The notes below the pieces were generated by a model. It did not search any database and was not told the origin of the DNA. It saw only the letters and a program-made list of their open reading frames with translations. Below are positions 1,451-25,549 of a DNA stretch of 64,000 nucleotides, one piece after another. Both the position numbers and the translations under genes were made by a program. The stretch's first letter is position 1, and the number at the start of each line of letters is the position of its first letter. Origin of the DNA: Desulfosporosinus sp. FKB (GTDB lineage: Bacteria > Bacillota > Desulfitobacteriia > Desulfitobacteriales > Desulfitobacteriaceae); assembly GCF_002196705.1 (NCBI RefSeq), contig NZ_NADJ01000013.1, forward strand, positions 1-64,000, read 5' to 3'.

Positions 1451-2731
1451 ATGACACAAGTTTTAAAAGCCCGTTCAGGAATCATCACCGAGGAAATGGA
1501 AGCTGTAGCGGCTGATGAGAATCTTGATGTGGAGTTTATCAGGCAGGGAGTTGCTGAGGGGAGAATAGTTATCCCAAGAAATAAAAAAAGGAAGGAATTT
1601 AAATACTGTGGGATCGGGGAAGGTTTAAGGATTAAGGTTAATGCCCTGATCGGCACCTCCAGCGATCGTGATGACATGGAAATGGAAGCACGAAAGCTAG
1701 CGATTGCGGAAGAAGCCGGTTGTGACAGTTTTATGGATTTAAGTACCGGAAAAAATATTGATGGAATGAGAAAACAGTCCTTGTCCCTAGCTCATGTTGC
1801 GGTTGGCAGCACGATGATTTACCAAGCAGGTATCGAAGCGATTGAAAAATACGGCAGTGTTGTCAACATGAGAGAAGAAGATATATTTGAGGTCATTGAA
1901 AGACAAGCGGCCGATGGTTTGGATTTTATGGCGATTCATTGTGCTCTGAATATGGACGTTATCAAACGAATGCAGACTACCGGACGGGTAACCGACGTGG
2001 TTAGTCGGGGCGGTGCTTTCCTCACTGGGTGGATGCTGCATAATCAGAAAGAAAATCCCCTCTACGAAAAATTCGATCGTGTGTTAGAAATATTAAAGGC
2101 ATATGACGTAACCTTAAGCCTGGGCGATGCTATCCGTCCCGGCAGCATTGCCGATTCGTTGGACGGCGCGCAGCTTCAAGGCATGATCATTCAGGGGGAG
2201 CTTACCAGGAGAGCACAGGAGGCCGGTGTTCAGGTCATGGTGGAAGGACCGGGTCATGTTCCCCTTAACCATGTCGATGCAACTATGCGCGTGCAGAAAC
2301 GGCTATGCAACAATGCCCCATATTATATTCTTGGAACCTTGGCGACAGATGTGACTCCAGGTTATGATCATATCAGCGGAGCAATCGGGGGAGCATTAAT
2401 CGGTGCGTGTGGTGCGGATTTTCTCTGTTATTTAACTCCCGCCGAACACCTGGGGTTACCGACTGAGGAAGACGTCAGAACCGGAGTAATCACTACCAGA
2501 ATGGCCGCTCATATTGCTGATATCGCCAAAGGCAATAAACAAGCTTGGGCTAGAGATCTAGAAATGGCCAAGGCCCGTGTTGCCCGCAACACGGACAGGC
2601 AGCTTAAGGCGGCTCTTTATCCTGAACAATTGAAGGCTGCTGCGGCAACTGCTGGAGACGACCACGGTTGTGTTGTATGCGGAACCGGATGTGCCGCCCA
2701 GGTCGCTGCCGAATATTTTGGTCTTGCTTAA
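1451..2731 (+). CDS. ThiC-family radical SAM enzyme, second of a tandem pair (bzaA/bzaB-like or ThiC)
   Basis: About 426 residues, clearly homologous to the preceding gene over its whole length but far from identical, so an old paralog and not a recent duplicate. ThiC landmarks: SRGGAFLTGWMLHNQ, GDAIRPGSIADSLDGAQ, VEGPGHVPLN, TDVTPGYDHI, CYLTPAEHLGLP, and C-terminal CVVCGTGC (CX2CX3C). AAGGTGG ends about 7 bases before ATG 1451, so that start is preferred to GTG 1442. With its neighbour it resembles the bzaA-bzaB pair, which together make 5-hydroxybenzimidazole in anaerobes; a thiamine role is the alternative. No other cobamide or thiamine gene is adjacent inside the window. Confidence 0.85.
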   Translation: MTQVLKARSGIITEEMEAVAADENLDVEFIRQGVAEGRIVIPRNKKRKEFKYCGIGEGLRIKVNALIGTSSDRDDMEMEARKLAIAEEAGCDSFMDLSTGKNIDGMRKQSLSLAHVAVGSTMIYQAGIEAIEKYGSVVNMREEDIFEVIERQAADGLDFMAIHCALNMDVIKRMQTTGRVTDVVSRGGAFLTGWMLHNQKENPLYEKFDRVLEILKAYDVTLSLGDAIRPGSIADSLDGAQLQGMIIQGELTRRAQEAGVQVMVEGPGHVPLNHVDATMRVQKRLCNNAPYYILGTLATDVTPGYDHISGAIGGALIGACGADFLCYLTPAEHLGLPTEEDVRTGVITTRMAAHIADIAKGNKQAWARDLEMAKARVARNTDRQLKAALYPEQLKAAAATAGDDHGCVVCGTGCAAQVAAEYFGLA

Positions 2732-3374: not shown

Positions 3375-5477
3375 ATGATTAAGCTTAGTTCTAGACAACT
3401 TGATTTGTTCCGGAAGCTGATTAACCGAGAAAATATAAAGGTTAAGGATTTTGCCCACAAAAATAATATAAGTGTTCGAACAGTTTACCGCGAAATTGAC
3501 AATATTAATAAAGAAATTCATGCTTTTGGAGTTAAAGTTGCAAACGAGGCTGGAGGACTTGTCTTAAACGGAGATGCTGAACAACTTATTCATCTAAAAT
3601 TGAATATTCCTGGGATTGGCTCAGTTATGAAGGTTGAGAACAAGAAAAATCTGATCCTCTTGGATCTTTTGCAAGGTAAAGAACCTATTAAGATACAATA
3701 TTTTGCCAAAAAATTTAACGTATCCAGTGCAGCAATCAGTTATTACCTAAAAGATATTAAAGAATGGTTGGAGAGTAAAGATATCATTTTGGTTTCTAAA
3801 CCGGGTGTTGGAATTTATATTGAATCTGATGAAGGAAATATTCGTCATGCCATCATTGATTTGTTATATCAAACTTACAGTACCGATGAATTAGTAAGCT
3901 TTTTGCAAGAAGGTTATGAACATCAAGCTTACCCTACAAACAACAAGCTCAATAATGAATTAAATATTAGATTATTGAACATGATGGATCATAACACTTT
4001 AAAAGTTATTGAAAAGGCTTTAATAAACTTAGAGACTGAAATGAATTACCAGATAGAAGATAGACTCTATATTGAGTTAGCGATTCATCTAGCCCTAGCA
4101 ATTAAAAGGCTGCTTAACGGAGAAACAATAGATATTCAGAGTTCAACTTTAGAAAAATTAAAAGAATCGGAAGATTATATTTACGCCGAAAAGATTGCTC
4201 AGTATATTACCAGTGAAATTCCCATTGAAATTCCAGAAGCCGAGATCGGGTATATTACTATTCACCTTCAAGGATTAAGAATTGGCACTCAGGCCCTTCA
4301 GGTCGAGGATCAGTTTTTGACTACCACGACGAACAAAATTATTCAAAAGGCTTCTGTTGAATTTGGAATAAATTTTAGAGAAGATCAAACACTGTACAAG
4401 GACTTAAAATCTCATCTACTATATTCAATCTATCGCTTGAAAAACGGATTTAAGATCCGTAATCCTTTAATTCAGCAAATTAAAAATCAGTATACAACCG
4501 TTTTTGAGCAGTGCAAATTAACCTTAGTTAAAACTCTGCAAGACGATTTGGATCTCGAGATTAATGATGATGAAATAGGCTATGTTACGATGCACTTTCT
4601 CGCTTCGCGGGAACGTTTAAAGAATAAGACCAAAAAGATAAATGCTCTTTTGGTCTGTGCCAGTGGGATAGGAACTTCTAGAATGTTAATGGCCAAACTG
4701 AAGAAGATCCCTCAGTTAAATGTTGTATCAACGGCGTCTGTGCTTAAGATTAACGAAATGAAAGAGACTTTTGATTTAGATGTCATTATATCAACGGTGC
4801 CTATTCAAAGAGATGACATTAAGGTTGTTGTTGTTAATCCGCTTTTTTCGGAAAGTGATTTAGAAAAGTTGGAAAGTGAATTAAACGTAGGGATAACTGT
4901 CCAACCCCAGGAGCGAAAAATCGAGTATAAGAAAGACCAGTTAAGCCAATTGAGATATATCAAAGATTATAGTTCGCAAATTAGTGTTCTGACCAAGAAT
5001 GTATGTTTTACAACGATGAGTTTTACCCAAGTCAAGGCTATTATTAAGGGGCTTTTAAATGAGCTTGTTGAGCGAAAATTATTGAATCAACAGCAGGCCT
5101 TAAGTTTAAGACGGACACTGTTGGATAGGGAAAAACTTGGGGCTATTATTATCCCGAAAAAAAACTTCGCCATTTATCATTGTGTCAGCTCTGAAATAGC
5201 GGAACCGATGATTGCCGTCGCTCAGTTGGACAAGCCTGTTAATCTGATAAATTTACTGGGCAAAAATGAAAAAGTGACAACGGCTTTTTTAATGCTTGCA
5301 CCACTAAATGTTAAAGAAAGCTTGGAGGTCATCGGGGATATTTCAAGTTCCATTATCGAGAGTTCGGACTTTGTCTTCGAAATTAATCGCAGTTCAAACG
5401 TGGAGGACTGTCGTGCTTTATTGGAAGAAACTCTTCTTAAAAAGCTTTATATTCAAATAGAGAGAATCTTTTCTTAG
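3375..5477 (+). CDS. PRD-containing PTS-controlled transcriptional regulator (BglG/MtlR/LicR type)
   Basis: A 700-residue regulator. Order of domains: two N-terminal helix-turn-helix segments (roughly 1-150; RTVYREI and SSAAISYYL are recognition-helix-like), PRD1 (about 185-295), PRD2 (about 305-415), an EIIB-like domain with LLVCASGIGTS (Cys428) and an EIIA-like domain with FAIYHC (His602). In this family PRD histidines are phosphorylated by HPr and the EIIB/EIIA parts by PTS enzymes, so activity follows sugar flux. Start ATG 3375 is preceded by AAAGGTGG. It heads a same-strand locus encoding a complete PTS, so local activation is the likely role. Confidence 0.9.
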   Translation: MIKLSSRQLDLFRKLINRENIKVKDFAHKNNISVRTVYREIDNINKEIHAFGVKVANEAGGLVLNGDAEQLIHLKLNIPGIGSVMKVENKKNLILLDLLQGKEPIKIQYFAKKFNVSSAAISYYLKDIKEWLESKDIILVSKPGVGIYIESDEGNIRHAIIDLLYQTYSTDELVSFLQEGYEHQAYPTNNKLNNELNIRLLNMMDHNTLKVIEKALINLETEMNYQIEDRLYIELAIHLALAIKRLLNGETIDIQSSTLEKLKESEDYIYAEKIAQYITSEIPIEIPEAEIGYITIHLQGLRIGTQALQVEDQFLTTTTNKIIQKASVEFGINFREDQTLYKDLKSHLLYSIYRLKNGFKIRNPLIQQIKNQYTTVFEQCKLTLVKTLQDDLDLEINDDEIGYVTMHFLASRERLKNKTKKINALLVCASGIGTSRMLMAKLKKIPQLNVVSTASVLKINEMKETFDLDVIISTVPIQRDDIKVVVVNPLFSESDLEKLESELNVGITVQPQERKIEYKKDQLSQLRYIKDYSSQISVLTKNVCFTTMSFTQVKAIIKGLLNELVERKLLNQQQALSLRRTLLDREKLGAIIIPKKNFAIYHCVSSEIAEPMIAVAQLDKPVNLINLLGKNEKVTTAFLMLAPLNVKESLEVIGDISSSIIESSDFVFEINRSSNVEDCRALLEETLLKKLYIQIERIFS

Positions 5478-5492
5478 AAGGAGGTGAGTAAA

Positions 5493-5750
5493 TTGACATC
5501 AGAAGGCAAATTAATTTCAATTTCTAAAAAACAATTAGGGCTATTCTATATTCTCTTAGCTGCAGTTTGGTTTGGAGAATCTGCCAATGAAATTATTCAC
5601 TACCGTTTCTTTGCGGGTGTAAGTTTGTTTGTCTTTGGAAGTTTATTTCTTATTGTTCTCTATCTAATTCAGAGTTACTTCACGAGAATGCTTCTGCTTT
5701 ACCAGAAGAATTTAAATAGTTCCAGACATTCATTAAAAAATAGGAGGTAG
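5493..5750 (+). CDS. Small two-helix membrane protein in the PTS locus
   Basis: About 85 residues; I do not recognise a family. Two hydrophobic stretches (about 15-30 and 40-60 from the start) are separated by a short polar segment with ESANEIIHYR, followed by a basic tail. AAGGAGG ends 8 bases before TTG 5493, which is preferred to GTG 5484 because the latter overlaps the Shine-Dalgarno sequence. It begins just after the regulator stop and ends 6 bases before EIIB, so it is probably co-translated with the PTS genes. It could be a small accessory subunit of the permease. Confidence 0.65.
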   Translation: MTSEGKLISISKKQLGLFYILLAAVWFGESANEIIHYRFFAGVSLFVFGSLFLIVLYLIQSYFTRMLLLYQKNLNSSRHSLKNRR

Positions 5751-5756
5751 TTAATT

Positions 5757-6077
5757 ATGAAAGCGATTATTTTGTGCAGTTGGGGTGCCACATCAAGTTC
5801 ACTGGCAAAGAGTGTAACAGATGAAGCTAAGAAGAGGAATCTGGACATTACCGTTGATGCAGGGGGTACAGGTGAATTTAAGAAAAAAGCGGCGGATTAC
5901 ACCGTTGCTTTACTTGAACCTCAGGTTAGGCATCTCAAGAAGGAGATCGAAGAGGCGGCAAGTAAATATGGAATTCCGGTAGATCTCGTAGATATGCAGG
6001 CCTTTGCCATGATGAACGGCAGTAAAGTACTTGACCAGATCCTGGAGTTAGCTAAAAAGGCAAAGCCAAGCAGTTAA
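5757..6077 (+). CDS. PTS EIIB, lactose/cellobiose family
   Basis: 106 residues, the normal size of a free-standing CelA/ChbB-type EIIB. The phosphorylated cysteine is Cys7 in MKAIILCSWGATSSSLAKSV, the family signature. It passes phosphate from EIIA to the sugar during uptake through the EIIC below. AGGAGG lies just before ATG 5757. A 180-bp gap with a strong hairpin separates it from EIIC, unusual within a PTS operon. Confidence 0.92.
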   Translation: MKAIILCSWGATSSSLAKSVTDEAKKRNLDITVDAGGTGEFKKKAADYTVALLEPQVRHLKKEIEEAASKYGIPVDLVDMQAFAMMNGSKVLDQILELAKKAKPSS

Positions 6078-6104
6078 AAGTAAGGACTTTTAAAGTCCTT
6101 ACTT
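6078..6104 (+). other. Intercistronic RNA hairpin between EIIB and EIIC
   Basis: Arms AAGTAAGGACTTT and AAAGTCCTTACTT are perfect 13-bp complements around one T, starting directly after the EIIB stop. No U-run follows, so it looks more like an mRNA-stability or processing element than a terminator. The next 150 bases are non-coding up to the EIIC start. Confidence 0.6.
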
Positions 6105-6257
6105 AGGTCAACGAAATTTTTCTTCCAGGATTAACAAGGCTGAATGAGAGTGAGGTAGCATACGATTGGTCTTGTCAGCTGGGGGATAAGTAAGTGGCCA
6201 ATTTGTAAGGACATCATAGTCCCTATTTTAACGATAAATATTAGGGGGGCTAAATTA

Positions 6258-7565
6258 ATGAAAAACAGCCGATTTATGCAGTGGATGGATGAGCATTTTA
6301 TGCCTGTCTTGGCCAGAATTGCTCAAAACATCTATTTGCAATCGATTCGTGATGCATTTTGCATCTTTGCATTACCACTTATTATTACAGGTTCTGTTTT
6401 CTTGATTATCTCAAATCCACCCGTAGCCCTTCACTGGGGAATTATTACAGCCTGGAATAATGCTATTACACCCATCCAAGGCCAAATAATGACCGCATTT
6501 AATTTGAGTTTTGGCATTATGGCTTTGATGGTTGCCTTCGGGACAGCTTATAGTCTAGCTACGAGGTGGGACTTAGATGATGCTTTAGCTGGTATCCTCT
6601 CGATGGTCAGCTTCCTGATTCTCTGCTTTCCTGCAACAGATGTAAGCAAAGTCTCTTTCGGAGATGTTCTAAACTACCTCGGTGGTCAAGGATTATTTGT
6701 TGCGATTATGATTGGAATTATGACCGCTAAAATTATGAAGTTTTTCACGCAGAAAGGTCTCGTTATCAAGATGCCCGCCGGGGTTCCTCCCTATGTCGTA
6801 AGAACGTTTACAGCTCTTGTTCCGTTCTTTTTCATGATCACATTTTCTTGGGCACTTGAATGGATCGTATGGTCCCATATGCACATCACAGTTCCTCAAT
6901 TAGTACTAGAGATCTTTAAACCATTAGTCGCAGTGTCTGACAGCTATCCGGCTGCGTTAGCTGAAATTATTCTCATGATGTTGTTATGGTCACTCGGGAT
7001 CCATGGTATGAATGTTGTGTCTTCTGTAGCCTATCCGTTCTGGATGACCCAACTGGCAGCAAATGATGCTGCCCTCAAAGCCGGTCAATCGCTTCCCGGA
7101 ATTGTTACCGAACCGTTCTTCCATATGTTTACACACATAGGTGGTTCAGGGTTGACATGGCCATTAACGATTATGTTCTTAATGTCAGCATCCAAACAGC
7201 TTAAGGGTATTGGCAGAACAGAAATCATCCCTGCTATCTTTAATATTAACGAGCCTCTTCTTTTTGGTGCCCCGCTTGTTTTGAATCCAATTATGTTCAT
7301 TCCCTTAATCCTGGCTCCAGTTGCGGCTGTTACCATTAACTATGCGGCCTTTGCTTTTGATCTTGTACCGAGAATTGTTACGCAGCCCTCATTCACGACT
7401 CCGGTATTTGTTGGTGGTATCATTGCTACGGGTGGTTATTGGCAGGGGGCTGTTCTGCAGTTAGTGAACTTGGTTGTCGCTGCAATTATCTACTATCCTT
7501 TCTTCAAAATGTTTGAAAAGGAATTGGTAGAAAACGAAAAAGCAGCTGCACAAGAAGCTGCTTAA
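6258..7565 (+). CDS. PTS EIIC, lactose/cellobiose family permease
   Basis: 435 residues, typical for CelB/ChbC/LacE EIIC. Many hydrophobic helices are visible, and the conserved region around 230-330 contains SLGIHGMNVVSS, FFHMFTHIGGSGLTWPL and FNINEPLLFGAPLVLNP, the last being the substrate-site motif of this family. It translocates and phosphorylates a sugar with EIIB. A long G-rich Shine-Dalgarno (TTAGGGGGGC) precedes ATG 6258. The substrate cannot be read; members handle cellobiose, chitobiose, lactose or simpler sugars, and no phospho-glycosidase is nearby. Confidence 0.92.
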   Translation: MKNSRFMQWMDEHFMPVLARIAQNIYLQSIRDAFCIFALPLIITGSVFLIISNPPVALHWGIITAWNNAITPIQGQIMTAFNLSFGIMALMVAFGTAYSLATRWDLDDALAGILSMVSFLILCFPATDVSKVSFGDVLNYLGGQGLFVAIMIGIMTAKIMKFFTQKGLVIKMPAGVPPYVVRTFTALVPFFFMITFSWALEWIVWSHMHITVPQLVLEIFKPLVAVSDSYPAALAEIILMMLLWSLGIHGMNVVSSVAYPFWMTQLAANDAALKAGQSLPGIVTEPFFHMFTHIGGSGLTWPLTIMFLMSASKQLKGIGRTEIIPAIFNINEPLLFGAPLVLNPIMFIPLILAPVAAVTINYAAFAFDLVPRIVTQPSFTTPVFVGGIIATGGYWQGAVLQLVNLVVAAIIYYPFFKMFEKELVENEKAAAQEAA

Positions 7566-7625
7566 ACGAAATAAGTCTTTACAAGTACCAATTTCCAGAA
7601 TTATAAATTTTGGGGGGGCATAACT

Positions 7626-7967
7626 GTGAACATTGAAAACAAACTTGACCTGGAACAGATCATCTTAAATCTTGTCCTGCACGGCGGCAATGCCCGCGGC
7701 AAAGCTTACGAAGCTTTGGATGCTGCTGAAGATGGTGATTTTGCACAAGCAGAAAAAAACCTCGAAGAAGCTGATCAGGAATTTTATGAAGGCCATAAAT
7801 ACCAGAATCAACTTATTCAAGGTCAATTAGAAAAGGACACTGCACCTAATTTCCTTGTTATTCATGCACAAGACCAGCTCATGACTGCTCTTGCCGAAAA
7901 GAACCTTATAAAAAGACAAATCGCTCTTTATAAACGTGTTCATGAATTAGAAAAGAAAATTCGATGA
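7626..7967 (+). CDS. PTS EIIA, lactose/cellobiose family
   Basis: 113 residues, matching the all-helical trimeric ChbA/LacF EIIA. The sequence NFLVIHAQDQLMTALAEKNL contains the active-site histidine region of this family. It accepts phosphate from HPr and hands it to EIIB. GTG 7626 follows a GGGGGG tract. EIIB, EIIC and EIIA are therefore all separate polypeptides here. Confidence 0.92.
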   Translation: MNIENKLDLEQIILNLVLHGGNARGKAYEALDAAEDGDFAQAEKNLEEADQEFYEGHKYQNQLIQGQLEKDTAPNFLVIHAQDQLMTALAEKNLIKRQIALYKRVHELEKKIR

Positions 7968-8041
7968 AGTACGCAAATTAAGTATAAATTAGATTAGAAA
8001 ATAAGGAACTAAGCAAGTTTTTCGGGAGATTCAGCATTCAG

Positions 8042-8102
8042 TTTAAGGGGTGGTTCTTTGTACGATTGTTGCCAAGCAACGAACAGAGAATACCCCTTTA
8101 AA
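8042..8102 (+). ncRNA. 61-nt long stem-loop between EIIA and pfkA
   Basis: Outer arms TTTAAGGGGT (8042-8051) and ACCCCTTTAAA (8092-8102) pair, the helix continues with TTCTTTGT (8054-8061) against ACAGAGAA (8083-8090) including a G-U pair, and an apical helix GTTGC/GCAAC (8068-8072/8076-8080) closes on CAA. The only interruptions are small bulges. It sits about 75 bases before the pfkA start and carries no U-run, so it looks like an intercistronic structured RNA or processing site. No known RNA family is recognised. Confidence 0.6.
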
Positions 8103-8177
8103 TAGTACAAGCTTGAAACAGCTTGATACGTATTTGCAATTACTTCAAGAGCGTTTTTTGGGTGAGAGGTGATACTA

Positions 8178-9146
8178 TTGGGTGATATAAAAAGGATTGG
8201 CGTGTTGACAAGCGGTGGGGATGCTCCTGGTATGAACCCATCTATTCGAGCCATAGTTCGCAAGGGAATTTACCATGGCTTGGAAGTTTTCGGGATTAAA
8301 AGAGGGTATGAGGGTTTAATTCACGGGGAATTTCAGGCAATGCAGCTGGGTTCAGTGGCAGATATCATACACCGTGGAGGAACAATTTTAATGACAGCAC
8401 GCTGTGCAGATATGAAAACAGAAGAAGGTCAGTACGAAGCAGTAAAACAGCTCAAGTTGCATGGCATTGATGCTTTGGTTGTAATTGGCGGAGACGGTTC
8501 TTTCCGAGGTGCGCAAACATTAGCCGGTCGGGGAATTAACGTTGTGGGAATTCCGGCGACCATTGACAATGATATCCCTGGCACCGATCTGACTTTGGGT
8601 TTTGATACGGCTGTAAATACTGTGCTGGAAGCTGTGAGTAAGATCAGGGATACAGCGACTTCCCACGAGAGAACGTTTATCGTTGAGGTCATGGGCAGAA
8701 ATTGCGGCAGCATTGCTTTACAGGCAGGACTCGCCTGTGGTGCGGAATCGATCATAGTTCCTGAAGTAACTTTTCAGATAGAAGAGGTTATCAGAAAGCT
8801 GCTCCAGGGACATCAAAGGGGTAAAAACCATAGTATTATTCTGGTGGCCGAAGGGGCAGGCAGTGCTTACGAAATCGGAGCCAAAATTAAGTTAAAAACC
8901 GGTTTTGATACCAGGGTTACGGTTTTGGGACACTTGCAAAGGGGTGGAAGTCCCAGTGCTGTTGATGCAGTGTTGGCCTCTGCTATGGGCGGTAAAGCTA
9001 TCGAAATCTTGCTTTCCGGAGCGAGTGAGCGCATGACTGCTTATGTTAATCGCGAAGTTGTGTCACTTCCCTTAGAGGTTGCCTATGGTCCGAGGCCCTC
9101 ATTTGATAAAGTTTTGTATGATCTAGCCAACGAATTGGCAATCTAA
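8178..9146 (+). CDS. pfkA: ATP-dependent 6-phosphofructokinase
   Basis: About 322 residues, the bacterial PfkA length. It phosphorylates fructose 6-phosphate to fructose 1,6-bisphosphate. Motifs: RIGVLTSGGDAPGMN at the N-terminus (ATP site), VVIGGDGSFRGA, GIPATIDNDIPGTDLTLGFDTA with the catalytic Asp, VEVMGRNCG, and LGHLQRGGSPSA. AGAGGT ends 7 bases before TTG 8178, preferred to GTG 8169. It follows the PTS EII genes and precedes HPr, an arrangement that channels an imported sugar phosphate into glycolysis. Confidence 0.96.
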   Translation: MGDIKRIGVLTSGGDAPGMNPSIRAIVRKGIYHGLEVFGIKRGYEGLIHGEFQAMQLGSVADIIHRGGTILMTARCADMKTEEGQYEAVKQLKLHGIDALVVIGGDGSFRGAQTLAGRGINVVGIPATIDNDIPGTDLTLGFDTAVNTVLEAVSKIRDTATSHERTFIVEVMGRNCGSIALQAGLACGAESIIVPEVTFQIEEVIRKLLQGHQRGKNHSIILVAEGAGSAYEIGAKIKLKTGFDTRVTVLGHLQRGGSPSAVDAVLASAMGGKAIEILLSGASERMTAYVNREVVSLPLEVAYGPRPSFDKVLYDLANELAI

Positions 9147-9196
9147 GAAATAACCTACAACTTGATTTTTAATATCACTACAAAGGAGACTGTCAA

Positions 9197-9460
9197 ATGA
9201 TTGAAAAAGAATATATGTTAACGAATCCGCAAGGTCTTCATGCCAGACCAGCCAGTTTGTTGGTGCAGGCGGCTACCCAAAGTAAGTCAGCGGTCACCCT
9301 TATTAAAAATGGCAACGAATATAATGCTAAGAGTATTCTGGGAATTCTGAGTGTGGGAGCCCAGAAAGGGGATAGTCTTATAATTAGGATTGATGGTCCG
9401 GACGAAGTGGAGACGGAAAACAAGATTCAAGCTTTGTTTGCTGGGAATTTTGGTGAATAG
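9197..9460 (+). CDS. ptsH: HPr phosphocarrier protein
   Basis: 87 residues. The EI-phosphorylated His15 lies in NPQGLHARPAS and the HPr-kinase target Ser46 in NAKSILGILS, so this is a Gram-positive HPr able to take part in catabolite control, not a Crh-like protein lacking His15. AAAGGAG precedes ATG 9197. Having HPr and EI downstream of EII and Pfk genes is less common than a separate ptsHI operon. Confidence 0.96.
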   Translation: MIEKEYMLTNPQGLHARPASLLVQAATQSKSAVTLIKNGNEYNAKSILGILSVGAQKGDSLIIRIDGPDEVETENKIQALFAGNFGE

Positions 9461-9554
9461 GTTAATAATAGGGAGTTTGAGAACCAAGAAAGATTAAGAG
9501 AAAAATTGAAATTGAATGTATGAAGCCTAATTTAAAAATGGAGGGTCAAAAATA

Positions 9555-11249
9555 ATGGGGATAGGGGTATCACCCGGAATTGCCATAGGGAAAGCCTTAG
9601 TGCTCAAAGAGATTCCCTCAAATTTGCCAAAACAAAGCTACCATAACAATGAGGAAGAAAACCAACGTCTGGATAAATGTCTCAGTACGGTGCGTCATCA
9701 ACTGGAAAATATCCGAGTGGAAGCAGAAGCTAAATTGGGAGATATGGCCCAAATTCTTGATGCTCAAATCTTGGTCACTCAGGATGAAGAACTCCTGACG
9801 TTTGTGAGGGGTAAATTAAAAGAAGGTTTGACTGCTGAAGCGGCTGTTTACGATGGTGTGGAATTTTACGCCAATCTTTTGGCTAATATGGATAATGACT
9901 ATATGCGTGAACGGGCTGCCGATATTAGGGACGTGGGTCAGAGGATGATCCGTCATCTCTTGGGATTGGAACAATCCAATTTAACTCATTTGACTGAAAG
10001 CTGTATAATCGTTGCCCATGACCTGACACCGTCCGATACGGCGACGATGGACCAGGAACGTGTCCTGGGTTTCGTCACGGATATTGGAGGTCGAACATCC
10101 CATACTGCGATCATGGCAAGAACGCTGGAGATCCCTGCTATTGTCGGTACGGTTGACGGGACGAGCATTATCAAAACCGGAGATATGATGGTTTTTGATG
10201 GTGAAAGCGGGGAATTAATCTTGAACCCCAGTGAAGAAACCTTAAAAGTTTATTCTGCTAAGCAGAAACAGGATCGGGAAAACAAAGCAAGGCTGCAGAC
10301 ACTCAAGGAGCAGCCCTCAATGACGCTGGATGGGCGGAAAGTGATAGTTGCTGCTAACATCGGAACGCCTAAAGACTGCGAAGGAGCACTGAAGCATGGA
10401 GCCGAAGGAGTAGGATTATTTCGGACGGAATTTTTGTATTTGAACCGAGATACCCTGCCGAGTGAGGAGGAACAGTTTCAAGCGTATAAAGCAGCCCTGG
10501 AAGCGATGGCCCCAAACTCAGTAATTATCAGAACCTTGGATGTGGGTGGGGATAAGGAGATTCCGTATTTGGGCTTGGCCAAAGAGAGTAATCCGTTTTT
10601 GGGATATCGGGCGATCCGAGTATGTTTACGCCAGACCGAAATCTTTAAAACTCAGCTGCGTGCCCTTTTGCGAGCAAGTGTTTATGGTAAGCTTGGGATA
10701 ATGTATCCGATGATCTCCGGCCTGGCTGAAGTGCGTCAGGCCAATGCGATCCTAGCCGTTGCCAAAGCAGAATTGGCTGCTGAAGGAATTGCTGTTAGTC
10801 CGGATGTCGAGGTAGGCATCATGATAGAGATTCCGTCTGCCGCAGTGATCTCGGACATTTTGGCTAAAGAAGTGGATTTTTTTAGTATTGGAACCAATGA
10901 TTTGATTCAGTATACGACGGCCGTGGACCGCTTAAACGAAAATATCGCTTCTCTCTATTCACCCTATCATCCGGGGGTGTTGCGTCTGGTGCAAAAGGTT
11001 ATCGAAAACGGACACAAGTCCGGGATCTGGGTCGGGATGTGCGGCGAAGCTGCCGGAGATACAGCTTTGATCCCCTTGCTCCTGGGCATGGGACTTGATG
11101 AATTCAGCATGAGCGCCATATCTGTCCTGAAAGCAAGGGAACTCATCGGACAGCTGAATTATGCCGAAACGCAGGCTTGGGTGCCTGAAATATTGGCCAT
11201 GGGGACGGCAGAAGAGATCAAGGAAGCTTTGTTGTTAAAGTCGACCTAA
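9555..11249 (+). CDS. ptsI: PTS enzyme I (PEP-protein phosphotransferase)
   Basis: 564 residues, family-typical. It transfers phosphate from PEP to HPr. The phospho-histidine is His183 in GGRTSHTAIMAR. The C-terminal PEP-binding barrel shows EGVGLFRTEFLY, RTLDVGGDKEIPYL, FLGYRAIR, SIGTNDLIQYT and GMCGEAAGD. GGAGGG precedes ATG 9555. The stop is immediately followed by a decayed aldolase fragment, so the original operon was longer. Confidence 0.97.
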   Translation: MGIGVSPGIAIGKALVLKEIPSNLPKQSYHNNEEENQRLDKCLSTVRHQLENIRVEAEAKLGDMAQILDAQILVTQDEELLTFVRGKLKEGLTAEAAVYDGVEFYANLLANMDNDYMRERAADIRDVGQRMIRHLLGLEQSNLTHLTESCIIVAHDLTPSDTATMDQERVLGFVTDIGGRTSHTAIMARTLEIPAIVGTVDGTSIIKTGDMMVFDGESGELILNPSEETLKVYSAKQKQDRENKARLQTLKEQPSMTLDGRKVIVAANIGTPKDCEGALKHGAEGVGLFRTEFLYLNRDTLPSEEEQFQAYKAALEAMAPNSVIIRTLDVGGDKEIPYLGLAKESNPFLGYRAIRVCLRQTEIFKTQLRALLRASVYGKLGIMYPMISGLAEVRQANAILAVAKAELAAEGIAVSPDVEVGIMIEIPSAAVISDILAKEVDFFSIGTNDLIQYTTAVDRLNENIASLYSPYHPGVLRLVQKVIENGHKSGIWVGMCGEAAGDTALIPLLLGMGLDEFSMSAISVLKARELIGQLNYAETQAWVPEILAMGTAEEIKEALLLKST

Positions 11250-22108: not shown

Positions 22109-22131
22109 GTCAAGGAAACATTTTCCTTGAC
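22109..22131. promoter_or_regulatory. Inverted repeat just upstream of the riboswitch promoter
   Basis: Perfect 10-bp arms GTCAAGGAAA and TTTCCTTGAC around CAT, ending 8 bases before the -35 box. A plausible operator; no bound protein can be named. Confidence 0.5.
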
Positions 22132-22139
22132 GAATAAGG

Positions 22140-22168
22140 TTGACACGCCTTGACTGCCAACTTATAAT
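22140..22168 (+). promoter_or_regulatory. Sigma-A promoter for the c-di-AMP riboswitch transcript
   Basis: TTGACA (22140-22145), spacer of exactly 17, TATAAT (22163-22168). Both hexamers are consensus and the riboswitch begins about 30 bases downstream. Confidence 0.85.
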
Positions 22169-22196
22169 GCTAAAAAATAGTTGTCAGCCATTCCAA

Positions 22197-22335
22197 CTAA
22201 ATAGCTTAAGACGCGCTGAGTTCCGCACTTAGTGGAAACGGGGGACCCATATTTTCGGGGCGAATCCGGCTTAAGCCGGTAGGGCTATCTCTTAGCCCGA
22301 ATCCATCAGCTAACTTCGTAAGCGCTTTCAAGAGA
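22197..22335 (+). promoter_or_regulatory. Cyclic di-AMP riboswitch (ydaO/yuaA class)
   Basis: Ordered conserved blocks of the ydaO class are present: GCTTAAG (P1 5' side), GGAAACGGGGGACCCA, GGGGCGAATCCGGC, GCCGGTAGGGC, TAGCCCGAATCCATCAGC, TAACTTCGTAAGCG (P1 3' side). In this class ligand binding normally turns expression off through a following terminator, which is present at 22352-22387. Usual targets are cell-wall hydrolases and potassium or osmolyte uptake; here the next genes are yopX-like and a two-component system. Confidence 0.9.
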
Positions 22336-22351
22336 AAACTTCTGAAATAGG

Positions 22352-22387
22352 GTCCTGCGTTCAGTTTGTTAACGCAGGACTCTTTTA
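22352..22387 (+). terminator. Riboswitch expression-platform terminator
   Basis: Arms GTCCTGCGTT and AACGCAGGAC (10 bp, perfect), followed by TCTTTTAT, immediately downstream of the c-di-AMP aptamer. Confidence 0.88.
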
Positions 22388-22590
22388 TGCATTTTGAAAG
22401 GAGGACTGCCAACTTGCCGGTTCCTTCCGGGATATAAATCGGTGGATGAAATAACGGTCTAAGTTAAACATTTTAGGGAATATCCCGTTACGCTGAAAAA
22501 TGAGTTTATTATTATTGGTACCCCCATAAAAAGTAATATTCTTAAGTATTACTAAGTGAGACACTATGGAGGTCTCAAGGAGGAAGTAAA

Positions 22591-22965
22591 TTGAAAGAAC
22601 TTAAATTCCGAGTTTGGGATAAGGTCAGACAAAAAATGTTTAAGCCTCAAGCCATTTCCTTTGATACACAGACGTTAGCTCCCTTCGCAGTCAGTGTGCC
22701 CGGTCGTTCGTGGGAACCGGCTGAAAAGTTTGACTTGCTGCAGTGGACCGGTTTGTCTGATGCCAAGGGTAGTAATGTTTATGAAGGTGATTTTATTAGC
22801 ATTTCCTCGGTTATGTACCAGGTGATTTGGAATAAATCCATCGGCGGTTTCGAACTCTTGGAAGCAGGAAGCTCTTTTAAGCGAAACATTATTGATGTTG
22901 GAATTGGCGAGATCGTTGGAGATCCATACCAAAATGTCCCTTTGACTGTAACTTCAAGATTGTAA
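22591..22965 (+). CDS. YopX-family protein
   Basis: 124 residues. MKELKFRVWDKVRQKMF, LLQWTGLSDAKGSNVYEGD and a closing GEIVGDPYQN are the pattern of YopX proteins, small oligomeric proteins of unknown function known mainly from phages and related elements. TTG 22591 follows AAGGAGGAAG by 6 bases. No other phage gene is nearby. It is downstream of the c-di-AMP riboswitch and 50 bases upstream of a response regulator gene. Confidence 0.8.
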   Translation: MKELKFRVWDKVRQKMFKPQAISFDTQTLAPFAVSVPGRSWEPAEKFDLLQWTGLSDAKGSNVYEGDFISISSVMYQVIWNKSIGGFELLEAGSSFKRNIIDVGIGEIVGDPYQNVPLTVTSRL

Positions 22966-23015
22966 AAATGGGCTCAATGCTTTGTTGGAAAGGCTGCCGC
23001 CGAGGGAGGAAAAAA

Positions 23016-23726
23016 ATGGCCTATTGTGGTAAGGTGCTGCTGGTTGACGATGACCAAAACGTTTTGGAACTGGTTAAATTATATGGTGAAAGGGAAGGTT
23101 TTAAAGTTATTGGTGTGAGCGACGGCGACTTGGTTCTCGCCGTATTCGACCGAGAAAATCCTGATGTGGTAATCCTGGATATCATGCTTCCTGGTCAGGA
23201 CGGGTTAACCCTCTGTCGTAAATTAAGGGCGGTTCGGATGGTTCCGATTATCATGCTCACAGCTAAGGGGGAGGAAGCAGACCGCGTTTTGGGACTGGAA
23301 ATGGGAGCCGATGATTATGTTTCCAAACCTTTCAGTCCCAGGGAATTGGTGGCCAGAATAAAAGCGGTCTTGCGCCGTACCCAACCGATAGAAAAAGCAA
23401 CGTATTGGAAATTAAAATATCCGGGGCTGGAAATCCTGGCGGATACCAGGACCGTTTTGATTGATGGTGAAAAAGCGGAAGTTACTCCCAAAGAATTCGA
23501 TTTGATGTATTACCTAGCCCTGAATCCGCGCCGGATTTTCAGCCGGGAGGAACTGCTTGCAGCTGTTTGGGGATATGATTTCTTCGGTGATCAGCGGACG
23601 ATAGATGTCCACATCCGCAGGTTAAGGACCAAACTGGCATCTTTGCCGGTTGAATACTTGACTACCGTTTGGGGTGTGGGATACCAGTTTACACCTCCTG
23701 CCAAAGGAGGAGCGACCACGCCGTGA
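23016..23726 (+). CDS. OmpR-family response regulator
   Basis: 236 residues from ATG 23016 (GGGAGG 6 bases upstream); an in-frame ATG at 22968 would add residues outside the receiver fold. The receiver has acidic pocket DDD (11-13), phospho-acceptor Asp55 in LDIMLPGQDG and Lys104 in SKPFSPRELVARI. A winged-helix output domain (about 135-232) ends in TIDVHIRRLRTKL and TVWGVGYQF. Its stop overlaps the kinase start, so the two are translationally coupled. Confidence 0.93.
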   Translation: MAYCGKVLLVDDDQNVLELVKLYGEREGFKVIGVSDGDLVLAVFDRENPDVVILDIMLPGQDGLTLCRKLRAVRMVPIIMLTAKGEEADRVLGLEMGADDYVSKPFSPRELVARIKAVLRRTQPIEKATYWKLKYPGLEILADTRTVLIDGEKAEVTPKEFDLMYYLALNPRRIFSREELLAAVWGYDFFGDQRTIDVHIRRLRTKLASLPVEYLTTVWGVGYQFTPPAKGGATTP

Positions 23727-25294
23727 ATAGTTATCTGGAGAAGGGCAGGGAAAAACTTCAATGGGTTATCCGAGCCCTCCATCGATTTGGGCTTCGTATT
23801 AAACGTTTACTTCAGGAACAATTCAACAAAAATCTTTACACTAGGATCTTGTTTACGAATGTCACAGCTTTTGTCATAGCTTTTATTGTCGTGATGCTTT
23901 TTTCCGGCTTTGTGGTTAAGCAGGTAACCTATGATCAGATTCAACAAGAATTGTTACGGGAAGCTAAACGAGTAAACTTTGCTTTACTCCAGCAAACGGA
24001 CAGCGCATGGAGTGTCCCGTTTGATCAGCGATCAAACAGTCAGGTTCAGGCTCAGCAGGACTTCTTGAAATATCTGGCCGGTATCTTTGACGCTAAAATT
24101 ACAATTTTTGATATGACAGGAAAGATTACAGCCACATCTGCTGAGCAGGAAATGGTGCCTGGCAGCCAAATCGATAACAAATACATTCAAATACTTCAAA
24201 AAGGTTTAATATCGACGACCCGATCTGTGGATCCGGATACCGGACAGCCAATCTTTGCTGCCGCCGTGCCCATGGGGAACAATAAGGGTAGTTTAACGAA
24301 CGGTATTTTGCTGGAAACGAAATCATCCAATCTCGACCTTGCTTTAAGCAAAATGCGTTTTTACATGCTTCTCGGGGGTATGGTCATTCTGCTGTTTATT
24401 ATTATCGTTTCTGTTTATCTGGCTATGTACATTTCCAGGCCAATTTCTCGTTTAACGGCTAATGTTGCTGAGATTAGCAGAGGGAGTTATGTTTTGAGCG
24501 ATAGGGACCAGCCCTTGGACGAGATCAATGTTCTCGGCGGCCAGCTTAATAAATTGGCGGAACGACTGCAGAAGATTCAGACCGAGAGCAGCAGGATGGA
24601 AGAGGAACGAACCCGCTTATTTGCTGAGATATCTCATGAGTTACGGACCCCTCTGACGGCTGTCCAGGGCTTTGTTGAGGCCATCCGCGACGGCATTGTA
24701 CAAGATGAGGCTGTCCAGGGGAGGTATTTAGACACGATTCACACGCAAACGGTTCATATCTGCAGACTGGTGGATGATCTTTTGGAATTAAGCCGTCTGG
24801 AAAGCGGCAATGTCACGGTAGAAAGACTACCCATTGACTTGAATGCTCTGGCACAGGGAGTGGCTACGTCCATGGAGCCAGTGGCCAATCGCACAAACAT
24901 CTCGATTTTAGTGCTCAGGAAAAGCGAAAAGGCCATGGTACTTGGGGATGCTGACCGGATGGAACAGGTGATCAGAAATCTGCTGAAGAATGCAATCAGG
25001 GCTACGGAGAATGGTGCAATCAGGATTAGTGTGGAAAACCGACGGGGTAATATTCTGCTTAGTATTGAGGATAATGGGATTGGCATAGCACCTGAGGATC
25101 TACCGCATATCTGGGAACGCTTTTACCGGACCAAAAACCAACGTGATAACCGCATTCAGGAAAATGGGAGTGGCCTGGGTCTGGTGATTGTGAAAAAGAT
25201 GGTACAGTTACAAGGCGGCAACATTGATGTGGTCAGCCAGTTGGGGAAGGGGACAACCTTTCACATCGATTTCCCAGCGTTTGAGCAGAAATGA
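23723..25294 (+). CDS. Sensor histidine kinase with HAMP domain
   Basis: About 523 residues from GTG 23723, which overlaps the regulator stop by 4 bases. A cytoplasmic leader is followed by TM1 (about 48-70), an extracellular sensor of about 130 residues, TM2 (about 208-232), HAMP, HisKA with phospho-acceptor His305 in FAEISHELRTPLTAVQGF, and HATPase_c with N box NLLKNAIRATE, DNGIGI, FYRT and GSGLGLVIVKK. The ligand is unknown. Position after a c-di-AMP riboswitch suggests an envelope or osmotic signal. Confidence 0.92.
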   Translation: MNSYLEKGREKLQWVIRALHRFGLRIKRLLQEQFNKNLYTRILFTNVTAFVIAFIVVMLFSGFVVKQVTYDQIQQELLREAKRVNFALLQQTDSAWSVPFDQRSNSQVQAQQDFLKYLAGIFDAKITIFDMTGKITATSAEQEMVPGSQIDNKYIQILQKGLISTTRSVDPDTGQPIFAAAVPMGNNKGSLTNGILLETKSSNLDLALSKMRFYMLLGGMVILLFIIIVSVYLAMYISRPISRLTANVAEISRGSYVLSDRDQPLDEINVLGGQLNKLAERLQKIQTESSRMEEERTRLFAEISHELRTPLTAVQGFVEAIRDGIVQDEAVQGRYLDTIHTQTVHICRLVDDLLELSRLESGNVTVERLPIDLNALAQGVATSMEPVANRTNISILVLRKSEKAMVLGDADRMEQVIRNLLKNAIRATENGAIRISVENRRGNILLSIEDNGIGIAPEDLPHIWERFYRTKNQRDNRIQENGSGLGLVIVKKMVQLQGGNIDVVSQLGKGTTFHIDFPAFEQK

Positions 25295-25348: not shown

Positions 25349-25549
25349 GTGGGGTTGGTGAAGCCAATATCCCGTGTGCTAGAAGGGCAATTTGCTGAGC
25401 TTGAACAAGAGATGAACTTTCTGCCGATTTTAGGGCATTTCTCCTATGATCCGGTTGTTGTAGATGCTGATTTTCATGGCAAAAATCTTTTCGATCTAAG
25501 CAAAAGGTTTGTTCAAGAAGCTGAAAAGATAAAATGGCTCCTTCTGTGA
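25349..25549 (+). pseudogene. Relic of a CooC/MinD-like P-loop ATPase C-terminus
   Basis: About 66 codons from a GTG without a Shine-Dalgarno site. PILGHFSYDPVVVDADFHG and the following LFDLSKRFVQEAEKI resemble the end of CooC-type ATPases (nickel insertion into CO dehydrogenase), where a G-x-I-P-x-D-P-x-V-x-x-A-D stretch precedes the last helix. The Walker A half is absent. Confidence 0.5.

Follow-up and report, generated by a model that had tools for sequence, protein, structure and literature searches.

The locus studied here raises the question of what a c-di-AMP riboswitch controls when the genes behind it encode a YopX-like protein and a two-component system (TCS). Excerpts from the literature on this riboswitch class name as its targets K+, ion, osmoprotectant, and amino-acid transporters, the cell wall peptidase nlpC, rpf genes, kdp, and lysine aminomutase. 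An earlier note on this DNA had described a promoter, a complete ydaO-class aptamer, and a terminator ahead of yopX, a response regulator (RR) gene, and a histidine kinase (HK) gene; it had regarded these as new targets for the class and had suggested that the original target of the riboswitch had been lost. Based on the analysis reported here, we favor, with a probability of roughly two-thirds, the reading that a canonical transcriptional OFF riboswitch controls a single yopX-RR-HK transcript, with a probable role in cell wall or osmotic homeostasis.

The riboswitch and its promoter

The window, that is, the whole 64-kb stretch of DNA that was analyzed, comes from a 5.12-Mb genome (G000) whose neighbors in the same genus include Desulfosporosinus nitroreducens and D. 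lacus. A scan of the window with the Rfam covariance models at gathering scores gave a single match, RF00379, which extended over the full length of the model (positions 1 to 134 of 134) and scored well above its gathering score of 38 bits (E = 8.2e-22). Alignment with the Rfam consensus was likewise full length, with an accuracy of 0.92 and two nonstandard pairs marked, and an alignment of 15 aptamers, that of the window included, contained 36 invariant columns. The RNA is a genuine c-di-AMP riboswitch of a known class, ordinary as an RNA, and is predicted to bind c-di-AMP. The elements that the earlier note had listed are all present, in the order promoter, aptamer, terminator, mini-ORF, yopX, OmpR-type regulator, and histidine kinase (Table 1).

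Table 1. Features of the c-di-AMP riboswitch locus in window coordinates
Feature	Position	Strand	Basis
Perfect 10-bp inverted repeat, GTCAAGGAAA-CAT-TTTCCTTGAC	22109..22131	.	Repeat search; upstream of -35
Sigma-70-type promoter, TTGACA-17-TATAAT	22140..22168	+	12/12 match
Dyad around -10, TGNCAACT-N16-AGTTGNCA	22155..22186	.	Pattern search; putative function
c-di-AMP (ydaO/yuaA) riboswitch aptamer, RF00379	22204..22339	+	97.4 bits; alignment
Predicted anti-terminator, aptamer-core stretch AAACGGGGGACCCATATTTTCGGGG	22236..22260	+	Predicted pairing with terminator left arm
Intrinsic terminator hairpin, expression platform	22349..22383 (tail to about 22392)	+	Fold; covariation over 5 leaders
7-codon mini-ORF TTG-TAA behind Shine-Dalgarno sequence AAAGGAGG	22414..22437	+	Sequence reading; peptide not conserved
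yopX-like gene, PF09643	22591..22965	+	First conserved gene after riboswitch
OmpR/PhoB-type response regulator	23016..23726	+	Response_reg/Trans_reg_C
Sensor histidine kinase	23723..25294	+	HAMP/HisKA/HATPase_c; overlaps regulator gene by 4 nt

The promoter is the sole exact match to the consensus within the 64 kb, where 0.07 such matches were expected from shuffled sequences. Two dyads accompany it. The inverted repeat, whose first base is also the first position of the region described in the earlier note, is possibly a protein-binding site, and the dyad around the -10 element is perhaps an operator for a further regulator acting on top of the riboswitch. The exact pattern of the latter, TGNCAACT-N16-AGTTGNCA, occurs at one site only in the genome; a like dyad lies at the corresponding promoter of D. 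nitroreducens, D. lacus, and Paradesulfitobacterium ferrireducens (loci L066, L067, and L070), and none was seen at the promoter of Acididesulfobacillus acetoxydans or Peptococcaceae bacterium CEB3 (L071 and L073).

Proposed switching mechanism

Folding of the sequence behind the aptamer revealed the strong terminator hairpin, which consists of 13 pairs (-19.8 kcal/mol) and is followed by the tail TTTATGCATTTT. Its loop measures 9 nt, and the automatic terminator scan allows 3 to 8 nt; hence, the hairpin does not appear in the list produced by that scan. Over five leaders (those of the window, L070, L069, L066, and L067, the terminators of the last two being identical), 94.1% of the cells of the stem were paired and 4 pairs had changed on both sides, with a covariation score that was equalled by 2 of 500 shuffles. 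By this comparative measure, the terminator is under selection. In D. nitroreducens and D. lacus, the stem is followed by a U-poor tail (CATTATTG), so that the strength of termination in these two species is uncertain.

The stretch AAACGGGGGACCCATATTTTCGGGG in the aptamer core is predicted to pair with the left arm of the terminator at -25.8 kcal/mol, an energy reached by 5 of 500 shuffled arms. For D. nitroreducens and D. lacus, whose platform is that of the window, the corresponding counts were 11 and 17 of 500, and the pairing was no better than in shuffled sequences in P. ferrireducens (168/500), A. acetoxydans (308/500), and CEB3 (291/500); an anti-terminator mechanism is thus backed in three of the six leaders only. 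It can be proposed that one transcript would start at about position 22175 and extend through yopX and the RR and HK genes. At high c-di-AMP levels, the aptamer would fold, the left arm of the terminator would be left free, and the terminator would form and switch the operon off; at low c-di-AMP levels, such as under potassium or osmotic limitation, read-through would instead be permitted by pairing of the aptamer core with that arm. YopX and the TCS would then be made, the TCS would form a second regulatory tier beneath the c-di-AMP signal, and its output would probably lie in cell wall or osmotic homeostasis.

The direction of switching is expected by analogy with characterized members of the class. 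Excerpts from two papers describe these riboswitches as OFF switches operating through termination or, in Corynebacterium, at the level of translation (PMC6488665, PMC9960051), and attribute OFF behavior to the kdp riboswitch of B. thuringiensis (PMC6488665); in excerpts from a third, the c-di-AMP riboswitch of Dehalobacter sp. CF shows OFF behavior in vitro, and bases of its aptamer core are proposed to pair with the left shoulder of the terminator (PMC9337991). Given these OFF members and the pairing proposed for Dehalobacter, the yopX operon would be expected to be on when c-di-AMP is low.

We also considered sequestration of the Shine-Dalgarno sequence before yopX as a general mechanism and rejected it: five of the six starts did not fold clearly better than shuffled sequences (z = -1.46 in the window and 0.02 to 1.63 at four other loci). 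The sixth, that of D. lacus, has a z value of -7.62; here (L067, positions 5940 to 6000), and in the same region of D. nitroreducens, a hairpin stands directly before yopX, with the likely Shine-Dalgarno sequence in its 3' arm.

The YopX protein

The YopX family (PF09643) is mostly known from phages, and the protein of the window had been called phage type. Its place in the family was upheld: it scored 48 bits against a Pfam cutoff of 22.4, and its AlphaFold model (pLDDT 88.9) matched the solved structures 2qyz (E = 1.4e-7), 2ox7, and 2p84 in a Foldseek search, the first of which was also found by sequence (E = 2.9e-15). The four fold matches under E 0.001 were all YopX-type proteins without a stated function. 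The comparison with phage proteins called for an adjustment. The protein falls below the cutoff of the phage YopX subgroup in NCBIfam (TIGR01671; 23 versus 41.3 bits), and most neighbors in the loci listed look chromosomal. Its relatives at 18 named loci are 49 to 75% identical to it, the members found in the class search are 46 to 73% identical to the Paradesulfitobacterium protein, and 18 sequences of the clade share 20 invariant columns; the best 80 of 248 viral YopX proteins are 27 to 42% identical over the matched segments and at most 34% identical where nearly the whole protein was matched. On these identities, the YopX protein of the window belongs to a separate clade that is distinct from viral YopX. 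Purifying selection acts on yopX, as judged from its dN/dS values (0.05 to 0.18 for four pairs).

A phage origin of the aptamer-yopX pair was considered and rejected, as no aptamer was found at the 80 viral loci (best 80 of 248) or at 39 distant YopX loci in genomes (L084 to L122); one of these viral loci (L197) and three of the genome loci (L086, L100, and L117) offer less than 500 nt of sequence ahead of yopX and could not have shown one. Part of the clade itself may be mobile, since at one locus without an aptamer (L053, positions 269 to 2313, genome G013), yopX is preceded at 2 to 4 kb by genes for a phage integrase and an S24 repressor, a hint of recent mobility, and at another (L061), also without an aptamer, an IS200-type transposase adjoins yopX. 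Desulfosporosinus also carries a second YopX clade, which lacks the riboswitch and lies near sporulation-type genes (L055, L056, L058, and L077); the neighbors in L055 are Spore_YtfJ and two Gate-domain proteins, and the same order was recognized by eye at the other three loci.

Conservation of the arrangement

Among 60 genomes (that of the window and 59 relatives), the same neighborhood was present in G018 and G021, and an aptamer with yopX was present in G031. A pattern-based scan of a named genome collection returned 57 YopX relatives, 18 of them with at least 49% identity, and a covariance model of our own (R1) placed aptamers at 5 of these 18 near loci, each beginning no more than 462 nt ahead of yopX. 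The 15 aptamers underlying R1 included those of five of the six aptamer-yopX loci (the window, L016 of D. nitroreducens, L070, L071, and L073), for which a match to R1 is thus built in; the Rfam model, independently of R1, recovered all six. At one near locus (L077), the sequence between about 383 and 572 nt ahead of yopX consists of N. In 82 genomes of the class, the YopX clade occurred in 23 (E = 1e-25 or better), with an aptamer at yopX in 6, the window included, and without one in 17; in 398 genomes drawn from the phylum, the clade was present in 4, all already known from the class.

The six carriers are the window species, D. nitroreducens, D. lacus, P. ferrireducens, A. acetoxydans, and CEB3, and they represent three genera, the last two falling into one genus in the class search. 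A tree of 19 was poorly resolved, with 4 of 16 inner branches starred, and the aptamer-yopX arrangement required 3 changes on it; a single origin is possible. Genome G057 (L069, positions 5830 to 6000; L050) has a terminator before yopX without an aptamer, and the sequence preceding the terminator belongs to another ORF, which favors an old association from which the aptamer was lost in that lineage and the platform left behind. Recurrence in related species makes the arrangement look like a maintained branch of c-di-AMP signaling rather than a leftover.

The two-component system and its neighbors

RR and HK genes follow yopX in four of the six aptamer-yopX loci. The pair of the window resembles cell envelope TCSs (WalRK, PieRS, and MtrAB) in combining an OmpR-type regulator with a HAMP-HisKA kinase but lies below all curated equivalog cutoffs: the best NCBIfam match of the kinase is WalK (257.4 versus 725 bits), and none of the 25 matches listed for the regulator reaches its cutoff, including the best, PieR (240.2 versus 450), and MtrA (232.6 versus 300). 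In view of these scores, we do not claim membership in any of the three systems.

The fullest operon is that of P. ferrireducens, in which aptamer, yopX, RR, and HK are followed after 15 nt by a class A penicillin-binding protein of the PBP1A family (599 bits versus a cutoff of 509); it is because of this operon in a related genus that a cell wall or osmotic role is proposed. A penicillin-binding protein is part of the riboswitch operon in one of the six loci only. Two genomes without the aptamer have the orders RR-HK-yopX-PBP1A (G044) and yopX-PBP1A (G057, a MAG in which PBP1A is split over two frames), and taken together, the three gene orders indicate that yopX, RR-HK, and PBP1A tend to travel together. 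These neighborhoods suggest that yopX, the TCS, and wall synthesis are functionally connected. In A. acetoxydans (L071/L048) and CEB3, where yopX is followed not by a TCS but by an ECF-type sigma-70-type factor, and in CEB3 additionally by a MucB/RseB-domain protein, another regulator resembling those of envelope stress seems to occupy the position of the TCS.

Orthologs of the penicillin-binding protein, at 64 to 85% identity, were found in 25 of the 60 genomes searched (one partial, in G005), in most of the 25 away from yopX, which speaks against the functional connection suggested above. None lies beside an aptamer among the aptamers listed, from which some, e.g., of G006, G032, and G033, are absent, and the window genome contains no match above 43%. 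Neither Pfam nor PHROG gave a match for the ORF of 66 amino acids behind the kinase gene of the window (positions 25349 to 25549); its product looks, on visual inspection, like the C terminus of a MinD/CooC-type ATPase, so that the ORF is perhaps the remnant of a gene.

Other c-di-AMP aptamers in the genus

The window genome has six aptamers, the other five of which precede three NlpC/P60 genes, a Kup-type potassium transporter gene, and a citrate synthase gene. Aptamer matches in the 29 searched genomes of the genus sum to 105, and for 101 of these, the nearest ORF downstream that had 95 codons or more was assigned to a sequence cluster, the clusters being named from Pfam or NCBIfam matches of one to three members each. 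The NlpC/P60 group accounted for 62 ORFs, citrate synthase for 15, lysine-2,3-aminomutase for 14, yopX and Kup-type transporters for 3 each, and others for 4 (two of unknown kind, one trehalose-phosphate synthase, and, at a distance of about 800 nt, one cytochrome bd subunit I). The trehalose-phosphate synthase-type protein (PF00982), an osmolyte gene product, lies behind the aptamer of L245 (positions 373 to 2184, genome G011).

Citrate synthase follows the aptamer at L001 (positions 1501 to 1643, reverse strand) and at 14 other loci (e.g., L008 to L011, L013 to L015, and L023), and 6 of the 15 ORFs begin about 850 to 1,010 nt from the aptamer. Pyruvate carboxylase is under known c-di-AMP control, and citrate synthase as a target would fit either that control or the use of glutamate as a counter-ion. 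No publication on citrate synthase as a target of c-di-AMP riboswitches was found, as judged by titles.

Discussion

The reading set out above has to be weighed against its rivals. It is unlikely that the riboswitch governs yopX only and that the RR and HK genes are expressed mainly from a promoter of their own, situated between yopX and the RR gene or inside yopX. RR-HK orthologs without an aptamer and without an adjoining yopX exist in two genomes (G032 and G049), where such genes can therefore have their own promoter, the aptamer-yopX pair exists without a TCS in Acididesulfobacillus and CEB3, and a weak promoter-like site that matches at 9/12 and carries a TG extension is found at positions 22942 to 22969; however, sites of that kind are within chance (17 found versus a shuffle mean of 13.3, with a standard deviation of 3.8), and the RR gene begins 50 nt past yopX with no terminator listed in between by the scan. 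Moreover, in P. ferrireducens (L070, positions 5400 to 11200) and D. lacus (L067, positions 5400 to 9500), promoter-like sites above 9/12 occur only ahead of the aptamer, and none is listed between yopX and the RR gene. The promoter scan of the window also showed no strong separate promoter for the TCS or for yopX; a separate yopX promoter, with no read-through, was one of the outcomes that the earlier note had named as speaking against its own reading. We give hardly any credence to the view that the RNA is vestigial or yields a short terminated transcript only, with no read-through of consequence. Such a transcript would be in keeping with the stable terminator hairpins of the six leaders (-17.1 to -30.5 kcal/mol), but the aptamer of the window is identical to those of P. 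ferrireducens, D. nitroreducens, and D. lacus at 118 to 121 of 134 positions, whereas the promoter (20 to 25 of 34), the terminator (29 to 31 of 48 to 49), and the spacer (53% in two) are less conserved in the same comparison. Stronger conservation of the aptamer than of its flanks would be expected if ligand sensing and its downstream output were under selection.

The proposal that the original target was lost, with a gene behind the terminator deleted or decayed and the yopX-TCS genes coming under the riboswitch by accident, was not borne out, and we regard it as very unlikely. The strong Shine-Dalgarno sequence and the seven codons on which it was built are present as described, a Shine-Dalgarno sequence with a short ORF can also be read after the terminator in D. 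nitroreducens (22 codons) and P. ferrireducens (24 codons), the spacer of the window is long (207 nt) and, in the leader alignment, partly conserved, and that of D. nitroreducens additionally holds a 70-codon ORF without a conserved counterpart. Nevertheless, the three mini-peptides look unrelated, and the mini-ORF lacks conservation both at the peptide level and as a larger gene. A 22-residue translated match (54%) between the spacers of D. nitroreducens and P. ferrireducens was considered as a decayed gene and rejected: in the best-conserved stretch before yopX in this pair, the differences are even across the three codon positions (4, 4, and 4 over 68 nt), and the stretch is therefore taken as noncoding conservation. 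A tblastn search with 444 neighborhood protein entries, some of them repeated, gave no match to the spacer of the window at E 0.01; its matches in the other four spacers searched (L066, L070, L071, and L073) were to the ORFs of those spacers themselves, between related spacers, or over 14 to 35 residues of unrelated proteins. No conserved gene was found between terminator and yopX, a distance that ranges from 73 to 278 nt and is only 73 nt in D. lacus; when the downstream genes of relatives are compared, it is yopX, a gene under purifying selection, that recurs as the first conserved gene in all six loci, in six species of three genera.

The reading that the riboswitch controls one yopX-RR-HK transcript would widen the c-di-AMP regulon beyond transporters and wall hydrolases to a dedicated signaling pair and the YopX family, for which no stated function was encountered, and the conserved arrangement offers a testable lead on the function of YopX and on a tie between c-di-AMP and peptidoglycan synthesis in these anaerobes. 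More tentatively, and with the odds against it, it can be envisioned that the chromosome of Desulfitobacterium-like bacteria took up the gene for a phage-type protein, which, together with its own TCS and a penicillin-binding protein, became a c-di-AMP-controlled cell envelope module in which YopX serves as an envelope or kinase-accessory protein. If so, a second messenger read by an RNA would gate the synthesis of a sensor kinase, the signal of the kinase would be answered only at low c-di-AMP levels, and a first cellular role would be assigned to the YopX family.

The novelty of the locus lies in the target operon, for which no description was found: as judged by titles, the beginnings of abstracts, and term counts, no publication joined YopX or such a TCS operon with a c-di-AMP riboswitch, in agreement with the earlier view of these genes as new targets, and the founding surveys (Block 2010, Nelson 2013) lay outside the search, so that these targets may be listed in their supplements.

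Dehalobacter is a fairly close relative. Like other members of the RF00379 class (ydaO/yuaA and kimA), the riboswitch of the window has the characteristic aptamer sequence and layout, a terminator platform, and a strong upstream promoter, but yopX, an OmpR-type regulator gene, and a kinase gene do not appear as targets in the passages on that class. The Na+/c-di-AMP tandem riboswitch of the Dehalobacter sp. CF lysine-2,3-aminomutase gene, as described in excerpts of its report (PMC9337991), has the same OFF terminator logic and the same kind of proposed pairing between aptamer-core bases and the left arm of the terminator. Unlike that tandem, the window has a single aptamer and a different target, and the predicted partner of the terminator arm is the GGGACCC core rather than the right shoulder of P1.
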